NCBI GenBank assembly: GCA_902801885.1
Contig: CADCJX010000016.1
Coordinates: forward strand, 1 to 53,698
Direction of reading: 5' to 3'
Source of the DNA: an uncultured Bacteroidia bacterium
Lineage (GTDB): Bacteria; Bacteroidota; Bacteroidia; Bacteroidales; UBA932
DNA: 53,698 bases
Numbering within the stretch: position 1 is the stretch's first letter; the number at the start of each line of letters is the position of its first letter. The notes beneath the pieces are model-generated. The model was not told the origin of the DNA. It searched no databases and worked only from the letters and a program-made list of their open reading frames with translations. The position numbers and the translations under genes are program-made. Below, one piece after another: positions 11,997 through 38,410 of this stretch.

Positions 11997-12082
11997 GATC
12001 TTCAATTATTAAGTTATTAAAGAGTATTATCCAATACATTGCCAATTTACGAAATATTCTGTTTAAATCCATCATTTTTCCC

Positions 12083-16843: not shown

Positions 16844-19519
16844 TCAAAGGTTCCTGGAACCGGAGTTCCAGCATTCAAAGAATATATTCAAGTTTCCTCC
16901 GGCATTCTCGCCGGGGGTGATGATGATTGTTCTGGACGAATGCGGCATCAGGGTGACGAAGTTGTCCGAATACATGGTCCCATGGATGGGAGCACCATCT
17001 GGATCCCTTAGCTGCAACCTGTTGAAAAAAGCTATTTTGCCTGATGTGTTCTTCAGAGTTACTTCAATCTTTCCGTAGGGCAGGTTCCGCTTTGTGAGGC
17101 GGACTTTTGCTGCCGGCATCTCCTGAAGGGATTCGAAGCCAGAGGTACACGGACCGGTGACTGTCTGCGGGCCGTCGTAGGAATCCGTCGAGCGCCAGTA
17201 GATGTTCTCAGAGACGACTTTCCCCGACTTGTCGGTCAGTACCAGCCTGATGAAGTGAACCTTCGAGATTCCTTCGGGGAATTCCAGGGTGAGGACATCG
17301 TTCAAGGCCTTGTCAGCCGGTATGTCAGCCGAGGCTTCCCAAGTGCGGATGCGCCGGCTGGCAAGATCGTATAATTCCGCCTTCAGCCTGAGTCCCTCAA
17401 AAGGCTCGGCATAGTCGTTGACTATGCTAACTGTATTCTTCAAGTAATCAAACTGGACATGCAGAGGCTCAAGTGAATGCATTGTATGATACAATGAAGC
17501 TGTGGGCTCCAGGTACCAGTCCCACATCCTAGCGCACACCTGCACGTTGGGGCTGTTGTGGTACCAGAACAGGAGGCCGGAACAGAAGCGGTCGCCGTCA
17601 TCCAGCCGGTTGTAGTTCCAGACTTCCCAGATGCTCTTTGAGTTCATAGCTCCGACGAGCTGGCCTTTCCGGGCATAATCCTCGATGTCCCTGGGAGTGC
17701 CGTAGCACTTAACCATGTCGTCATACAAAGTGCTCATCAGATGGAAGCCATTCCCGTCAAGATAATCCCAGGTCATCTTGTCCAGGGGCCAGAGCTTCTC
17801 CGCAGGCATCATATTCCTTAGGCTTTCGATGACAGGGAGGGTAGGGGCACCATATTCAGGATTGAAGCCGTCCACACGGCTTCCGCGGTCTGAAGCGGTG
17901 TTGGTGTAGTGGCGCATCGGATTGACTTGCTTGTATGGGCTTCCGTCATGGATACCGTCGCATTCAGACTGCATCTGGTAGGGTCGTGTACCGTCAAGGG
18001 CGTCGAGCAGTTCCGGAGTCCCGCTGACTTCCGTACTCTCGTTGGAGGCTACATAGAATATGATAGAAGGGTGGTTGCGGATCCTCTTCACCGTCGAGGC
18101 CACGTTATTGAAGTATATGGACTTGTCATGCGGATGGCGGGTGTCACCTGTCATCCAGAATTCCTGCCAGACCATGATTCCGTATTCATCACACAACTGG
18201 TAGAACAAGTCGCTTTCGGCAATGCCGCCTCCCCAAAGCCGGAGGAAGTTGATGCCGGACTGGTCGGTGTAGGCCATCTCGGTGCGCATGCGGTCGTCGT
18301 CGGTGCGGAGCATCGCTTCCGGTATCCAGTTGCTGCCCCGGATGAACATCCTTTTACCATTGACAATGAACACCTTCGACCTATCGGGAGTGTCGGTTGT
18401 TACTTGGATGTCACGGATCCCGAAGGGGACGACCGCCGAGTCGGAAACCTTGCCGTCAACGAGTACTTCCAGATTCAGCTTGTAGAGATTCTGGGGACCT
18501 TTGTTCTTTGGCCACCAGAGACGGGGATTCCTGATCTTGAGCTGGGGATAATCTTCAGGTGTGAAGGTCACTTCGGCTTCTTCTCCACGGATGAGGGTGG
18601 CTTCCTTCCGGAATGTTATTCCTGTCCCTTCGATTTCACCTTTCACGACGCATTTGACGGGCTCGTTGTTGGTGAATCCGCTGGCAGGATTGATTATCTC
18701 GACCGACACGGTCTGGGCTGATTCCTCCATCCCTGGCATCGAAAGGGATGATTTGATGAATGGGCTTCTTAGCGCGACGGGGCCGGTAGTGAATATCCTT
18801 ACAGACTTCCAGATACCGGTGTTGCGGTCGCGGATGCCGTCATCATACGAGAAGTCCCAGCCGACCGTCATGAGTTGAGTGGTGTTCCAACCGATGTCTC
18901 CGTCACCTCCGTTGCGATTCTCTCCGGGGGCTCCCCATGGCTTCGGCATGGTGGTACCGGGCACGTCGACAGGCTTGACGAGGACTGCAAGGGCATTCCG
19001 TCCGTCTTTCGCCACGAAATCGGTGATGTCGATCCTGTCCTCGTTGAACATTCCGGCCATGACGCTGACCAGGTGGCCGTTGAGCCACCATTCAGCCCTG
19101 TAGTTGATACCTTCTGGATTGAGCCAGATACGTCCTCCTTCTTCCACTGAGGGGGTGTTGAACTCGGTGCGGAACCAGTAGGTGTAGAACTCCCTTCCGG
19201 CATCGATGATGTCGGGGATCTTCTTTTCAGAAATCTTGTTGTTGGTTCCGTAATATGGTTCCGGATAGACTCCGTTCTCGACAAGGGAGGTCAGCACTGT
19301 ACCTGGAACTATGGCGCTCATCCAGCTGCTGTCGTCGTATCCGGCGGAAGACAGTTCCCTTGCAGCGGACCTGACCTCGTCGGCCCTGCACATCTTCCAT
19401 TCGTACTGACCGCCATGCCCCAGCCTCGAATCCAGCACCTGCCCCTGTGCATTAGCCTGCAGCATCGCCACCACCGTCAGCAGCCCGATCAAAACCAACC
19501 TCATCTTGCTTCGTACCAT
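16844..19519 (-). CDS. GH2 glycosidase, exo-glucosaminidase/beta-mannosidase-like
   Basis: 891 residues with a signal peptide ending in QANAQ (an internal ATG at 19504 is an alternative start). Order: N-terminal sugar-binding jelly roll (galactose-binding-like, with GINYRAEWWLNGHLV), Ig-like domain, then a TIM barrel with FLRLWGGGIAESD and WQEFWMTGDTRHP, followed by C-terminal beta domains. The acid/base is Glu494 in SNES and the nucleophile Glu565 in VIES, 71 residues apart, as in the CsxA exo-beta-D-glucosaminidase and endo-beta-mannosidase branch of GH2. It should trim beta-linked glucosamine or mannose residues in the periplasm or outside; which one is not decided. No SusC/D partner is near. 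Confidence 0.88.
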   Translation of the reverse strand: MVRSKMRLVLIGLLTVVAMLQANAQGQVLDSRLGHGGQYEWKMCRADEVRSAARELSSAGYDDSSWMSAIVPGTVLTSLVENGVYPEPYYGTNNKISEKKIPDIIDAGREFYTYWFRTEFNTPSVEEGGRIWLNPEGINYRAEWWLNGHLVSVMAGMFNEDRIDITDFVAKDGRNALAVLVKPVDVPGTTMPKPWGAPGENRNGGDGDIGWNTTQLMTVGWDFSYDDGIRDRNTGIWKSVRIFTTGPVALRSPFIKSSLSMPGMEESAQTVSVEIINPASGFTNNEPVKCVVKGEIEGTGITFRKEATLIRGEEAEVTFTPEDYPQLKIRNPRLWWPKNKGPQNLYKLNLEVLVDGKVSDSAVVPFGIRDIQVTTDTPDRSKVFIVNGKRMFIRGSNWIPEAMLRTDDDRMRTEMAYTDQSGINFLRLWGGGIAESDLFYQLCDEYGIMVWQEFWMTGDTRHPHDKSIYFNNVASTVKRIRNHPSIIFYVASNESTEVSGTPELLDALDGTRPYQMQSECDGIHDGSPYKQVNPMRHYTNTASDRGSRVDGFNPEYGAPTLPVIESLRNMMPAEKLWPLDKMTWDYLDGNGFHLMSTLYDDMVKCYGTPRDIEDYARKGQLVGAMNSKSIWEVWNYNRLDDGDRFCSGLLFWYHNSPNVQVCARMWDWYLEPTASLYHTMHSLEPLHVQFDYLKNTVSIVNDYAEPFEGLRLKAELYDLASRRIRTWEASADIPADKALNDVLTLEFPEGISKVHFIRLVLTDKSGKVVSENIYWRSTDSYDGPQTVTGPCTSGFESLQEMPAAKVRLTKRNLPYGKIEVTLKNTSGKIAFFNRLQLRDPDGAPIHGTMYSDNFVTLMPHSSRTIIITPGENAGGNLNIFFECWNSGSRNL

Positions 19520-19898
19520 AATATGTTAATAATAATTATTGTCAGGTCATGGTCATCCCCTCGGAGCCACGTCGACTGGACTACTCACATCGGCCGTGCT
19601 CGACGGCTCGCTAACTCGGGCCTGTAAGGTCCTCAGACAGACGCTCGCTTTTCGTCGGCCCGGCTCTCGTTCGCTACGTCCATTCTCCTAGTGCTCCTCG
19701 GGGACGCCATGGCCTGACGAATTCTATCGGGTTAGCCATTCCGTCCCGGAACCGATAGCTATTAATTGAAGTTCCGAGATTCTGGCTAATTAAAATTGCT
19801 CCGAACTTAGTGAGTTCAGGGAGTCTGAGGGGAACGACCCTCAGTCCCCTAGGGGTGCAGGGGGGTAGATGATGCACCAAGTTGGAAGCATTTGCTTC
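19520..19898. other. 379-bp gene-free gap between upp and the GH2 gene
   Basis: Both flanking genes are on the minus strand, so this is the leader of the GH2 gene and the 3' region of upp. I find no gene and no exact TAnnTTTG on the minus strand. Most of it is occupied by the repeat described at 19561-19872. An open minus-strand frame of 68 codons has no protein-like features. Confidence 0.6.
19561..19872. repeat. Dispersed repeat, long copy
   Basis: The left end (19561-19576, starting TCGGAGCCA) and the right end (19816-19872, containing CTGAGGG-GAACGA-CCCTCAG and GGGTGCAGGGGGGTAGATG) both match the segment at 37574-37646 inside the ABC exporter gene. The right 56 positions differ from the exporter copy by a few substitutions and a 2-nt indel. 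In the exporter copy the two ends are fused directly, so this may be a fuller version with about 240 bp of internal sequence. The internal sequence holds no recognisable gene. Confidence 0.6.
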
Positions 19899-20528
19899 CT
19901 ACTTCGTGCCGAAAATGCGGTCGCCGGCATCGCCGAGGCCGGGAACGATGTAGGCATTCTCGTTGAGGCAGTCATCTACCGCAGCGGTGTAGATGTCCAC
20001 ATCAGGATGCTCGTTCTGGACCTTCTTGATACCTTCCGGAACACTTACAAGGCACATCAGCCTGATGTTCCTGCAACCCTTCTTTTTCAGCATGCTGATT
20101 GCATCACAGGCACTGCCGCCTGTCGCAAGCATCGGATCGGTGACTATGACCAGACGGTCCTGGATGTCCTCCGGAAGCTTGCAGTAATATTCCACCGGCT
20201 CATGGGTCTCCTCGTTGCGGTACAATCCTATATGTCCAACCTTGGCTACAGGGACAAGGGTATGCAGTCCTTCGACCATCCCAAGACCTGCACGGAGGAT
20301 CGGCACTATCGCGAGCTTGCGACCGGAAACTTCCCTGGCGGTCATCTTGCAGATTGGAGTCTCAATTTCCACGTCTTCGAGAGGAATGTCCCTGGTGACT
20401 TCATAGCCCATGAGAAGCGAGATCTCGTTCAGGAGTTCCCTGAAATCCTTTGAACCAGTGTTCTTGTCCCTCATGATGGTCAGCTTGTGCTGTACCATCG
20501 GGTGGTTGATTACATGCAGTAAACTCAT
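19899..20528 (-). CDS. upp: Uracil phosphoribosyltransferase
   Basis: 209 residues, the usual length of Upp. [18 protein letters not shown] is the PRPP-binding loop, [11 protein letters not shown] the flexible loop region, and the C-terminal [16 protein letters not shown] is the uracil-binding signature. It salvages uracil with PRPP to give UMP in the cytoplasm. It follows the glycine-lipid gene glsB by 27 nt on the same strand, so it may share its transcript, although there is no metabolic link. The repeat-bearing gap downstream separates it from the GH2 gene. Confidence 0.95.
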
Positions 20529-34615: not shown

Positions 34616-36359
34616 GACCCTTCTCAAGCAGGTCAAGCAGTACAAGACAGCAGCCCTGCTGACCCCGGTCTGGACAACAGCCGAGGTCATCATGGGCGTG
34701 CTGATTCCGTATGTGACAGCTTCGCTCATCGATAAAGGTATCAACGCCGGAAACATGTCAGAAGTCTTCCGGTATGGAGGCATTATGCTCTTGATGGCCT
34801 TTTTCAGTACGCTTTTCGGCATTCTGTCGGCCCGCTTCGGAGCATATTCATCAACCGGCCTTGCCGCCAACCTTCGCGAGGCCATGTACAGGAACATCCA
34901 GAGGTTCTCCTTCTCGGACATAGACAAGTACTCTACAGCCGGCCTTGTCACGAGGATGACGACTGATGTAAGCAACATCCAGGGAGCGTTCCAGATGCTC
35001 CTGAGAATCAGCTTCAGGGCTCCGCTGAACTTGATATTCAGCCTTTTCATGTGCTTCTTCATCAATCCTAAACTTAGCCTGGTCTTCCTGATCGCCATGC
35101 TCATCTTGAGTGCATGCCTGTTTTTCCTGATCCGCAGGGCAGCCAGGCTTTTCGTGCAGATCTTCGAGAAGTACGACAAGCTCAACGGTGTCATCCAGGA
35201 GAATGTCTCAGGTATCAGGGTGGTCAAGGCCTTTGTACGCGAGGAGCATGAATTGAGCAAGTTCGATAAGGCCGCTCTCTCACTCTACAACCTTAACGTC
35301 AAGGCTGAAAGCCTTATGGCACTGAACCATCCCGTGATGAACCTGGTAGTGTACGGGAGTATCATATCGCTCTCGTGGTTCGGAGCTCATTTTATTGTAG
35401 GAGGCTCACTTACGACCGGCCAATTGACTTCTCTCTTTACGTATATCATGACAGTTATGTCATCTCTCATGATGCTGTCCATGATCTTCGTGCAGTTGAC
35501 CCAGAGCGCAGCTAGCGGCAAGAGGATAGCCGATGTGATCGACGAAGAACCTGATATGTTCGATCCTGATGAACCTCTGAAAGTAGTGAAAGATGGAAGC
35601 ATCGATTTCGAGAATGTCTCCTTCGCTTATAGTAAAGGTGGAGATTATGCTTTGGAAGGTGTTAATATTCATATAAATTCAGGTGAAACTATTGGTCTGA
35701 TAGGAGGTACTGGAAGCGGTAAGTCCAGCCTTGTTTTCCTGATCCCACGTCTTTACGACGCTTCCGAGGGAACGGTCAAAGTAGGTGGTATCGATGTTCG
35801 CAAGTATGGTATGGAAGCTTTGCGTGGACAGGTTGCCATGGTACTTCAGAAGAGCACACTGTTTTCAGGAACCATACTGGAAAACCTGAGGTGGGGGCGG
35901 GAAGATGCCACAGATGAGGAATGTATCGAGGCCTGTCGCCAGGCATGCGCCGATGAATTCATCGAGCAGATGCCTGATGGGTACAACACCTATATTGAGC
36001 AGGGCGGAACCAATGTTTCCGGTGGTCAGCGCCAGAGGATCTGCATAGCCAGGGCTCTATTGAAGAAACCCAAGGTGCTGATCCTGGATGATTCCACTTC
36101 AGCTGTCGACACGGCCACAGACTCTCACATCAGGCAGGCGATATCTTCCCGTGTCGAAGGCCTGACGAAGATTATCATCTCCCAGAGGATCCTCAGCATC
36201 AAGGATGCTGACAGGATAATCGTAATGGATGACGGAAAGGTCGTGGCTTTTGATTCGCACGAGAACCTCCTTGAGTCATGCTCTATCTATAAGGACATCT
36301 ATGAGATGCAGACTTCGGGCGCCGAAGCCGATTTTGACAAAAAGGAGGTGGCAGCATGA
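34608..36359 (+). CDS. ABC exporter half-transporter, degenerate ATP site
   Basis: 583 residues from ATG 34608 (a TTG at 34599 is a weaker start). An N-terminal six-helix exporter domain (about 1-320) is followed by a nucleotide-binding domain with Walker A GGTGSGKSS, signature VSGGQRQRICIARALL and Walker B VLILDDSTSA. The catalytic Glu after Walker B is Asp, and the H-loop His is Gln (IISQRILS). These are the marks of the degenerate subunit of heterodimeric exporters of the BmrCD/TM287-288 type. Its partner is the next gene, which overlaps by 4 nt. Substrates may be drugs, lipids or peptides; no clue is present. Its site is completed by the LSQGE signature of the partner. Confidence 0.9.
   Translation: MVRTLLKQVKQYKTAALLTPVWTTAEVIMGVLIPYVTASLIDKGINAGNMSEVFRYGGIMLLMAFFSTLFGILSARFGAYSSTGLAANLREAMYRNIQRFSFSDIDKYSTAGLVTRMTTDVSNIQGAFQMLLRISFRAPLNLIFSLFMCFFINPKLSLVFLIAMLILSACLFFLIRRAARLFVQIFEKYDKLNGVIQENVSGIRVVKAFVREEHELSKFDKAALSLYNLNVKAESLMALNHPVMNLVVYGSIISLSWFGAHFIVGGSLTTGQLTSLFTYIMTVMSSLMMLSMIFVQLTQSAASGKRIADVIDEEPDMFDPDEPLKVVKDGSIDFENVSFAYSKGGDYALEGVNIHINSGETIGLIGGTGSGKSSLVFLIPRLYDASEGTVKVGGIDVRKYGMEALRGQVAMVLQKSTLFSGTILENLRWGREDATDEECIEACRQACADEFIEQMPDGYNTYIEQGGTNVSGGQRQRICIARALLKKPKVLILDDSTSAVDTATDSHIRQAISSRVEGLTKIIISQRILSIKDADRIIVMDDGKVVAFDSHENLLESCSIYKDIYEMQTSGAEADFDKKEVAA
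36342..36349 (+). promoter_or_regulatory. Strong Shine-Dalgarno before the second ABC subunit
   Basis: AAGGAGGT lies 6 nt before the ATG at 36356, inside the end of the first subunit gene. Near-perfect Shine-Dalgarno sequences are rare in this window, as expected for Bacteroidota, so this one may be chance from the Lys-Glu-Val codons or may support internal initiation. Confidence 0.4.
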
Positions 36360-38410
36360 GCGCGCAGCAGAGAATGGGCGGCAGGCCCCGCGGTGGAGTC
36401 CGCGAACCTCACATGTCAAGGGAAGAACTCAAGTCGAGTCTCGGCAAGGGTTCTACCGTTTGGCGCCTTTTCAGTTTCATATTCAAGAATTATAAGATAA
36501 GGATAGGAATAGTCCTGGTGTGCATCGTGGTTTCAGCCCTGGCTACCCTGGCTTCTTCGCTCTTCACCAAGACCCTGATCGACGATTACATCACCCCTAT
36601 GCTTTCCATGGCGGCGCCGGATTATTCTCCTCTGGCTGTCGCCCTGTTCAAGTTGGGAGCAGTGCTGCTCGTCGGAGTCGTGGCTTCATATTCCTACCAC
36701 CTGATCATGATCTTCGTCGGGCAGGGGACGATGCTTCGATTGAGGGAGAACCTGTTCTCCCACATGGAGGACCTTCCTCTTTCGTATTTCGACTCGAATT
36801 CCCACGGAGACATAATGTCGGTCTACACGAATGACGTTGACACCCTGCGCCAGGTAATAGGAAGTACCCTTCCAAATCTCTTCCAGTCGCTTATTACCCT
36901 GATCTCTACCTTTGTCTCCATGATAGTCCTGTCAGTTCCGCTGACCCTTGTGTCAATCCTCATGGCAGTCCTAACTGTGAGAGTAACTACAGCCTTGGGA
37001 AAAATCTCGAAAGGCTATTTCGTGGAAAGGCAGAAGAACCTGGGCAAGGTCAACGGTTTTATCGAAGAAATGGTTTCCGGCCAGAGGGTGGTGAAGGTCT
37101 ACTGCCATGAGAAAAAGGCTGTGGAGGATTTCACCGTCCTGAACGAGCAACTCCGCTCCAGTGCCTACAATGCCAACAAGGTAGGAAGCATGGTGATGCC
37201 TATCAACGGCAACATCGGCAATCTTGGTTACGTCCTTACTGCTGTGGTCGGTGCAACGATCGCCCTCGGCGGTTTCACAGCCTGGTACCTTTGCGGAATC
37301 GGCGGTGCGACCCTGACATTGGGAACTCTCGTTGCCTTCCTTTCGTTGCAGAAGAATTTCACCAGGCCAATCTCGAGCATCTCCAATGAGATCAACTCGA
37401 TTGCCATGGCTTCTGCCGGTACAGACCGTGTCTATGGACTGCTCGATGAGCCCAAAGAGGTCGATAACGGAAATGTTACACTTGTTAACACAAGTGTTTC
37501 CGAGTCTGGTGATGTTGAAGTTAGCGAAAAGCGTACCGGCTCATGGGCTTGGTCCTCGCCATATATAGTGCCTTCGGAGCCAAGCGACTCAGGGAGTCTG
37601 AGGGGAACGCCCCTCAGTCCCCCTCGGGGGTGCAGGGGGGTGGATGGCTATGAAGCCTCGGAGAGGCTTGTGCCTCTCCGTGGCCAGGTCAGCCTCCAGG
37701 ATGTGGATTTCGGCTATGTTGAAGGGAAGCAAGTACTGTTCGACATCAGCCTGACTGCCTACCCCGGACAGAAAATCGCCTTCGTCGGAGGCACCGGTGC
37801 CGGCAAGACCACGATCACCAACCTGATCAACCGTTTCTACGAAATCCAGGAAGGAACCATCACCTACGATGGCTTTGATGTTCGAACCATCGAAAAGGAC
37901 TCCTTGAGACGAAGCCTCGGTATGGTCCTTCAGGAGACTCATCTCTTCTCCGCTTCCGTGCTTGACAACATCCGCTACGGACGCCTCGATGCGACAGATG
38001 AAGAGTGCAAGGAGGCAGCCAGGCTGGTTTATGCCGACTCTTTCATCCGCCGTCTGCCCCAAGGCTATGACACCGTCCTGGCGGCCGACGGAGGAAACCT
38101 GTCCCAAGGAGAGCGCCAGCTTCTGGCTATTGCACGGGCGGCAGTTGCCAATCCTCCTGTACTGATACTGGATGAGGCAACCTCATCGATTGACACCAGG
38201 ACCGAGAAACTGATCCAGAAAGGCATGGATTCCCTTATGAAGGGCCGCACGACTTTCGTGATCGCCCACAGGCTCTCGACTGTCCAGAACGCCAACTACA
38301 TCATGGTGCTGGACCATGGCCGGATCATCGAGCGTGGCAGGCATGACGAACTCCTCGACCTCAAAGGCAAGTACTACGAGCTCTACACCGGTAACCAGAT
38401 CACACAGTAG
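36356..38410 (+). CDS. ABC exporter half-transporter, catalytic subunit with insertion
   Basis: 684 residues, some 70 longer than usual for a half-exporter. Six-helix membrane domain (about 40-350), then NBD with Walker A GGTGAGKTT, signature LSQGERQLLAIARAA, Walker B VLILDEATSS with the catalytic Glu, and H-loop IAHRLS, all canonical except the Q in the signature. It forms a heterodimer with the preceding subunit and supplies the working ATPase site. The extra length lies between the membrane domain and the first NBD strand (about residues 375-443): SVSESGDVEVSEKRTG, then PSEPSDSGSLRGTPLSPP, then GYEASERLVPLRG. The DNA there is a chain of perfect hairpins and matches a repeat at 19561-19872. 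The frame is kept, so the gene is probably still functional. Confidence 0.88.
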   Translation: MSAQQRMGGRPRGGVREPHMSREELKSSLGKGSTVWRLFSFIFKNYKIRIGIVLVCIVVSALATLASSLFTKTLIDDYITPMLSMAAPDYSPLAVALFKLGAVLLVGVVASYSYHLIMIFVGQGTMLRLRENLFSHMEDLPLSYFDSNSHGDIMSVYTNDVDTLRQVIGSTLPNLFQSLITLISTFVSMIVLSVPLTLVSILMAVLTVRVTTALGKISKGYFVERQKNLGKVNGFIEEMVSGQRVVKVYCHEKKAVEDFTVLNEQLRSSAYNANKVGSMVMPINGNIGNLGYVLTAVVGATIALGGFTAWYLCGIGGATLTLGTLVAFLSLQKNFTRPISSISNEINSIAMASAGTDRVYGLLDEPKEVDNGNVTLVNTSVSESGDVEVSEKRTGSWAWSSPYIVPSEPSDSGSLRGTPLSPPRGCRGVDGYEASERLVPLRGQVSLQDVDFGYVEGKQVLFDISLTAYPGQKIAFVGGTGAGKTTITNLINRFYEIQEGTITYDGFDVRTIEKDSLRRSLGMVLQETHLFSASVLDNIRYGRLDATDEECKEAARLVYADSFIRRLPQGYDTVLAADGGNLSQGERQLLAIARAAVANPPVLILDEATSSIDTRTEKLIQKGMDSLMKGRTTFVIAHRLSTVQNANYIMVLDHGRIIERGRHDELLDLKGKYYELYTGNQITQ
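37478..37680. repeat. In-frame repeat insertion in the ABC exporter gene
   Basis: Three perfect hairpins lie in order: ACACTTGT-TAAC-ACAAGTGT (37478-37497), CTGAGGGG-AACG-CCCCTCAG (37598-37617), and CGGAGAGGC-TTGT-GCCTCTCCG (37659-37680). The part from 37574 to 37646 matches both ends of the intergenic repeat at 19561-19872. The whole stretch replaces the usual short linker just before the nucleotide-binding domain and keeps the reading frame open. Confidence 0.7.

Follow-up and report, generated by a model that had tools for sequence, protein, structure and literature searches.

Palindromic elements that lie in frame within protein genes are known mainly from Rickettsia. The RPEs are, according to the passages cited, short palindromic repeats of several families that are found in frame in unrelated genes (PMC10969869, PMC3733652). 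In enterobacteria, RU and ERIC are described in the cited excerpts as small repeats that lie inside genes and have open frames (PMC2759123, PMC2229807). The REPs are given as 20–40 bp long and extragenic by name (PMC3733652, PMC2817692). Template switching has been reported, in the part of the account used here, to homogenise arms and to invert spacers in yeast (PMC8604942), and it has been discussed for coding palindromes in the cited sections of another paper (PMC6649704). Among the matches listed from the open-licence literature, no report was found of such elements in Bacteroidales or Cryptobacteroides.

This study concerns a window of 53,698 nucleotides from a rumen bacterium (the whole stretch of DNA that was analysed), with a short element E (family A), a larger family B, and a repeat C. 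By description, E is like the RPEs in being a dispersed short palindromic repeat that lies in frame, with an open frame, in unrelated protein genes. E and B differ from the RPEs in phylum, because the host is not Rickettsia or a relative but a member of the Bacteroidales, and in that many copies have next to them an inverted stretch copied from the gene in which they lie. In the cases read, the two arms of an E or B copy have stayed alike; for RPEs, by contrast, the passage cited describes a loss of repeat identity (PMC6649704). Both E/B and RU/ERIC are intragenic, but the excerpts used for this comparison, which is by description only, do not mention host-derived arms for RU and ERIC. E shares its short palindromic form with REP/BIME, and RAYT-like genes exist in E genomes; however, 20/20 strong E copies are in genes, whereas the cited passages place REPs outside them, and E copies overall do not lie mostly outside genes (25/40 are in ORFs). 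Family B is similar to MITEs in size and inverted-repeat layout, but its outer arms are copy-specific and pair only with their own partner. At template-switch quasipalindromes in coding DNA, as here, arms are homogenised and spacers inverted, but their spacers are given as a few bp in the part of the source cited (PMC8604942), whereas the spacer here can be a repeat of ~100 nt and the new arms reach about 25–29 nt. The palindromes of Nematomorpha mitochondria are likewise perfect inverted repeats in protein genes for which template switching has been discussed; unlike E and B, they are found in animal mitochondria and the cited sections describe no common repeat core (PMC6649704). Host-derived arms appear to set E and B apart from the RPEs, REPs and MITEs as those are described in the passages cited.

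The exporter gene and its linker

The features of the exporter gene are as follows, with positions counted from the first letter of the window.

36356 to 38410, plus strand: ABC exporter subunit of 684 aa that reads through the insert (translation, Pfam)
37472 to 37552, plus strand: native linker, residues 373–399, ending in WAW (alignment of relatives, structure model)
37478 to 37497, plus strand: hairpin 1, ACACTTGT-TAAC-ACAAGTGT, a perfect 8-bp stem within the native linker and outside the element
37553 to 37663, plus strand: inserted stretch, about residues 400–436 (missing from several close relatives; pLDDT)
37574 to 37645, plus strand: core of element E (family A), ~72 bp with three stem-loops, in frame in the exporter (copies, folding)
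37577 to 37590, plus strand: E stem-loop 1, GAGC-CAA-GC-ga-CTC, in which GA forms a bulge (read from the sequence)
37598 to 37617, plus strand: hairpin 2, which is E stem-loop 2, CTGAGGGG-AACG-CCCCTCAG, a perfect 8-bp stem (sequence)
37619 to 37639, plus strand: E stem-loop 3, with C-rich and G-rich arms (sequence)
37655 to 37667, plus strand: left arm of hairpin 3, GCCTCGGAGAGGC (sequence, relatives)
37672 to 37684, plus strand: right arm of hairpin 3, GCCTCTCCGTGGC, the native VPLRG codons (LVPLxG is conserved in relatives)

The exporter contains the Pfam domains ABC_membrane (51–335) and ABC_tran (462–610). The preliminary description of this DNA had judged the protein to be about 70 residues too long, which is so in comparison with distant homologues: TM_0288 (3qf4_B), the nearest solved homologue, has 4 residues where the exporter has 373–437. 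Against its own genus, the surplus is only ~36 residues (about 400–436). Linker residues 373–399 are conserved in the genus and beyond, with W397 and W399 invariant in 21 aligned sequences, and AlphaFold2 modelling with 21 homologues placed strands at 374–381, 387–389 and 396–401. Residues 404–435, which lie between strands 396–401 and 437–440, had pLDDT values below 50. The exporter was the one protein modelled, and only this pLDDT contrast was used since the mean pLDDT of the model was 68.

The alignment of orthologues that had been proposed as a check showed that the insert is absent from the linker of several close relatives (L066, L071, L073, L075, L079 and L095), and that other relatives hold different inserts at the same spot. 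Repeat C is found there in one orientation in L063 and in the other in L064, with the same arms on either side, while the linker of L097 holds E in reverse together with other repeats. The opposite picture, in which the genome would have no further copies and orthologues would keep the same linker, did not arise.

An inserted chain of three perfect hairpins had been described for this region. All three hairpins were found, and hairpins 1 and 2 have perfect 8-bp stems; hairpin 3 (37655–37684), with 13-nt arms, has one mismatch. As a chain, however, they do not form one insert, because the element covers only 37574–37645, hairpin 1 is native linker, and hairpin 3 lies on exporter codons. Hairpin 1 is host coding sequence, since the linker through WAW is native and conserved; its stretch was located in 22/26 relatives' loci (two of which are one genome), where the best stem was 3–8 bp, and it was dropped as a part of the element. 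Hairpin 3 was ruled out as an element part because its right arm is made up of conserved codons of the exporter itself (VPLRG). The left arm was probably copied, in inverted form, from these downstream codons. The right half of the left arm, about half of the arm, overlaps the ERL codons and is partly common to L066, L077 and L079, and for this reason the exporter alone is no proof of a copied arm.

Copies of element E

Two further features of the window lie about 18 kb away.

19804 to 19870, plus strand: second E copy, intergenic, adjoining the uracil phosphoribosyltransferase gene (19899–20528, minus strand)
19874 to 19909, plus strand: hairpin after the intergenic E copy (30/36, E-value 4e-5), one arm of which enters the 3′ end of the phosphoribosyltransferase gene

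The stretch 37574–37646 had been reported as nearly identical to the ends of a repeat at 19561–19872. For one end this was borne out, as 37589–37646 and 19816–19871 are alike in 53/58 columns (E-value 1.4e-13, search against the window), whereas the other end gave 17/20 with an E-value of 0.28 in pairwise comparison. The part of the 19561–19872 repeat that lies before 19804 had no other match in the genome below an E-value of 0.5, and only the last part is E. The E consensus reads SERSDSGSLRGTPLSPPRGCRGVD in frame +0 and is open in 3/6 frames, which is not special since same-base shuffles are most often open in three or four.

The window is contig C16 of a genome (G000) of 2.46 Mb in 31 contigs. 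A search of this whole genome for repeats, as had been suggested, gave four clear E copies beyond that of the exporter: the window copy at 19804 and copies in ksgA (C2:70081), the cardiolipin-synthase-like gene cls (C8:65605) and purL (C9:6595), making five in all, and more were found in the genus. The genome also has E fragments beside tRNA-Asp and tRNA-His. The genus was taken as Cryptobacteroides because the nearest relatives of the exporter, mostly rumen and gut Bacteroidales, include Candidatus Cryptobacteroides faecihippi; most of the named relatives are metagenome assemblies. E matches were present in 82/300 Cryptobacteroides genomes with at most two candidates scored per genome, and ten E-rich genomes that were fully scored had 6–16 E matches each, partial ones counted. 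A family-wide draw gave E in 9/249 genomes and 3/25 genera; six of these nine genomes belong to that same genus.

In a number of loci (L006, L008, L046, L047, L057), E copies or fragments lie within ~50–70 nt of tRNA or tmRNA genes, and in several of these the hairpin after E extends, by eye, into the 3′ end of the RNA gene. At two loci only (L151, L049), ~20-nt direct repeats of the host flank were seen by eye on both sides of E, besides the inverted arm. The assembly contig G072:C60 (L034) and its matching record L084 stop just past E, where the exporter hairpin would start. Since base 12073 is the last one in both contigs, L084 and G072 are apparently the same genome.

Reading frames of the inserts

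The reading frame was followed in 40 distinct E copies with a full 3′ end. Every one of the copies scoring at least 40 bits (20/20, three of which, L207, L247 and L277, came from gene-based fetches) was read through by an ORF of at least 250 aa. Among the weaker copies, 5/20 were within such read-through ORFs and 15/20 were outside long ORFs, so that 25/40 distinct copies in total are in ORFs of at least 250 aa. In 11 genes that were selected for an insert in at least one species, with the species taken as found, 109/109 gene-by-species sites were multiples of 3 without a stop, and 59/109 were at least 20 aa longer than the shortest orthologue. The latter was the case for 8/10 sites in miaA, 12/14 in rsmF and 9/11 in purH; pdhE2 and tldD had no clearly empty species.

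Pfam domains flank the insert by coordinates in 4/10 insert-bearing proteins (cls, tldD, a GH3 enzyme and the exporter). In ksgA, argD and a metallo-hydrolase (3/10) there are two stretches of one Pfam domain, with the second position not shown, and in purH, rsmF and a binding-protein-like ORF (3/10) the Pfam domain is on one side of the insert only. The genes that we take to be miaA, ispH, argC, recQ, the E2 subunit and purL were named in part from Pfam hits; the transporter that is presumably "matE" had no Pfam hit in the piece scanned.

Families B and C and shared hotspots

With partial matches counted, family B is found 24 times in the window genome and family C 12 times. With one cut locus dropped, 15 of the remaining 23 B matches are in ORFs of 340–812 aa (two of them sharing one ORF), and 8/23 lie outside such ORFs, near gene ends. 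The same loops of ksgA, purH, rsmF, argD, tldD and miaA hold different repeats or none, depending on the species.

Peptides such as LSEAKNL and RSAQND occur in many metagenome proteins. A repeat that reads LSEAKNL or RSAQND was also seen in frame in ksgA of G072 (L256) and in argD (L297 and L300). Additional in-frame families, PHRGARGGES and GREAQGAQAPF, were seen at the same hotspots in miaA of G017 and G189 (L413, L415) and argD of G162 (L304). In cls, the composite insert of B and E looks block-inverted between the sister species G000 (L269) and G072 (L270).

Inverted arms at the elements

A perfect stem of at least 9 bp was present within 75 nt past the 3′ end of E in 19/40 copies, which count orthologues apart (purL four times); if purL is counted once, the figure is 17/37. 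Such stems were present in 8/1264 control windows of the same loci, to which loci with two E copies contributed twice, and in 0/40 windows upstream of E. The 21/40 copies without this stem include those of ksgA and cls in the window genome. For family B, the pairing of a copy's own arms had a mean score of 14.6 compared with 6.3 for 506 mismatched pairs, and 18/23 copies were above the 99th percentile. For family C, whose arms lie partly inside the query, 2/12 copies were above the mismatched-pair threshold. Among 68 inserts in the 11 genes, 32 were above the 99th percentile of other-gene pairs and 36 were not.

Where empty relatives allow judgement, one arm is native and the other is its mirror copy. 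The native arm was told by eye, against relatives, in purL, cls (G072), argD (G042), purH (G212 and G090), miaA (G000 and G146) and tldD (G017). The feature looked for as a sign of template switching, a new arm that is the reverse complement of adjacent native DNA, was found in miaA, purL, cls of G072, argD of G042 and purH, and the spacer flips between the arms in miaA and in the exporter of L063 and L064. In purL the new arm is the left one, and the right arm is formed by conserved codons for WLLMF. In miaA, G090 has the CAGCTCGGAGGTATAGTGTCCTCCG arm alone, G146 has this arm followed by the B core and by the arm's reverse complement, in which one base is mismatched, and G000 has a perfect pair of 25-nt arms. 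In ispH, neither arm is recognisable as native.

Gain, loss and inversion between species

Matches to purL were found in 211 genomes, and 44 loci were fetched (the 30 best and 14 chosen), 42 of which were readable. Four of the 42 hold E, one has another insert, one has a bare hairpin, and 36 are native or at most 6 residues longer. The purL tree has two sister pairs, each with support of 100/100, in which one species holds E and the other is empty: G000 (with E) and G072, and G152 (with E) and G144. E-bearing G090 adjoins G146, which has the hairpin without E. The purL site of G146 can be read either as the state before E, with the hairpin first, or as a footprint left after the loss of E. Some of the shared sites, for example the purL hairpin of G000 and G146, could also be due to whole alleles that passed from one species to another.

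In miaA, the sister species G000 and G072 have the element in opposite orientations and their two arms have changed in concert, and G090 has the native arm only. In purH, the insert of G042 is long, G033 has a shorter stretch and G017 a palindrome of 12 nt, a series that suggests decay.

Origin of the elements

Copies of E are dispersed, with empty orthologous sites in close relatives and open frames that read through, and about half of them are followed at the 3′ end by a copy-specific hairpin, one arm of which is host sequence. From the distribution of E and B we infer that they are mobile. The proposal that the insert is a copied or mobile element, and not the outcome of ordinary protein evolution, agrees with the copies in unrelated genes and with the orthologous sites that are without E, but its extent was set too wide, as hairpins 1 and 3 are outside the element. 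Our preferred reading, to which we assign a probability of roughly 0.62, is that these are RPE-like elements of Bacteroidota whose host-derived arms are acquired or maintained via template switching by the polymerase. This confidence rests on genes other than the exporter. Counting against the reading are the poor arm pairing of family C, the 36/68 inserts and 21/40 E copies that fall short of the pairing thresholds, the ambiguous left arm in the exporter and the arms of ispH, the 15/20 weaker E copies outside long ORFs, the lack of a clearly empty species for pdhE2 and tldD, the alternative reading of the G146 purL site, possible allele transfer, and the fact that most named relatives are metagenome assemblies.

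According to this proposal, what enters the gene would be a single strand of E, or of the larger family B, in folded form. While synthesis passes through the hairpin, the polymerase would switch template, copy ~12–29 nt of adjacent host DNA backwards, which would yield a new inverted arm, and then go back to the normal template. Later switching of the same kind would keep the arms alike and could flip the intervening sequence. Survival would be limited to in-frame insertions in tolerant loops, and this may be why the same loops are hit repeatedly in different species; the low pLDDT of exporter residues 404–435 agrees with such tolerance. A more far-reaching version, which we regard as less likely than not, is that the elements have no fixed outer terminal repeats, and that fold-back synthesis on the host gene makes the inverted arms at the time of insertion ('snap-back' insertion).

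An enzyme that mobilises E or B was sought, and none was tied to either. The elements might instead be moved by a transposase acting in trans (a REP-associated tyrosine transposase or similar) that prefers existing hairpins, in which case the arms would be targets and not products. Matches to PF01797 (RAYT-like) in 13/15 genomes, 12 of them above the cut-off, agree with such an enzyme, as do E-like copies within ~1 kb of one such gene in G251 and E copies within ~2 kb in G033 and G000, the purL hairpin of G146 that is without E, and some intergenic E copies or fragments within ~50–70 nt of tRNA or tmRNA genes, where terminator hairpins may be old. However, the listed flanks of 20 RAYT-like genes have other palindromes or none, and E was not seen among them; in G000, G033, G072, G189 and G090 the gene simply adjoins ksgA, even where ksgA is without E; and the empty coding sites of close relatives (purL of G072, G144 and G042; miaA of G090) are without a hairpin. 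RAYT-like genes are not supported as movers of E, and we consider a transposase of this kind unlikely. The RAYT-like genes themselves (L205–L207, L209, L211, L216, L218–L223) are mostly about 290–320 aa long and form several families within one genus, and many are bordered by a palindrome of their own, for example AAAACGCATAG..CTATGCGTTTT or ATGTGTCCG..GGACATG. Reverse transcriptase (PF00078) was present in 6/10 genomes tested, and none was found in G000, G033, G146 (84% complete) and G152 (80% complete). Phage and plasmid records gave no match to E at an E-value of at most 0.01, and the exact patterns of E and B had no match in viral contigs.

Somewhat less probable again is an origin without any moving element, in which hairpins arise in tolerant loops through template switching during replication, and these loops then spread by recombination between species. 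The arms and flips do resemble template switching, and the same spots are common to related species, but within one genome, unrelated genes have similar E and B cores (24 B and 12 C matches in G000), and local template switching is unable to carry one core of 72–100 nt between genes. That the same loops are filled in many species, as in miaA, rsmF and purH, could also mean that the inserts are kept for a benefit, through mRNA structure or loop diversification. We think this very unlikely, given that the same spot has different cores or none according to species and that no common peptide motif was seen. The least probable explanation, for which we see hardly any chance, is that the insert is removed or skipped as a mini-intron, an intein or by ribosome bypass and is never in the protein. 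The inserts do lie in housekeeping genes and have strong hairpins, but skipping would not need all 109 sites to be in frame and stop-free, and there was no Rfam match at an E-value of at most 0.5 over window positions 18000–40000.

Significance

These data place in-frame palindromic elements at scale in a large gut genus of Bacteroidales, where purL, ksgA and miaA are among the core genes that hold them. On the practical side, the assembly contig G072:C60 stops just after E, at the expected start of the exporter hairpin. From the host-derived arms one can read how such elements enter or alter genes, and template switching may shape proteins between species. If snap-back insertion is true, the genus would have a standing process that writes and erases frame-keeping loops in housekeeping proteins and leaves a hairpin footprint behind.
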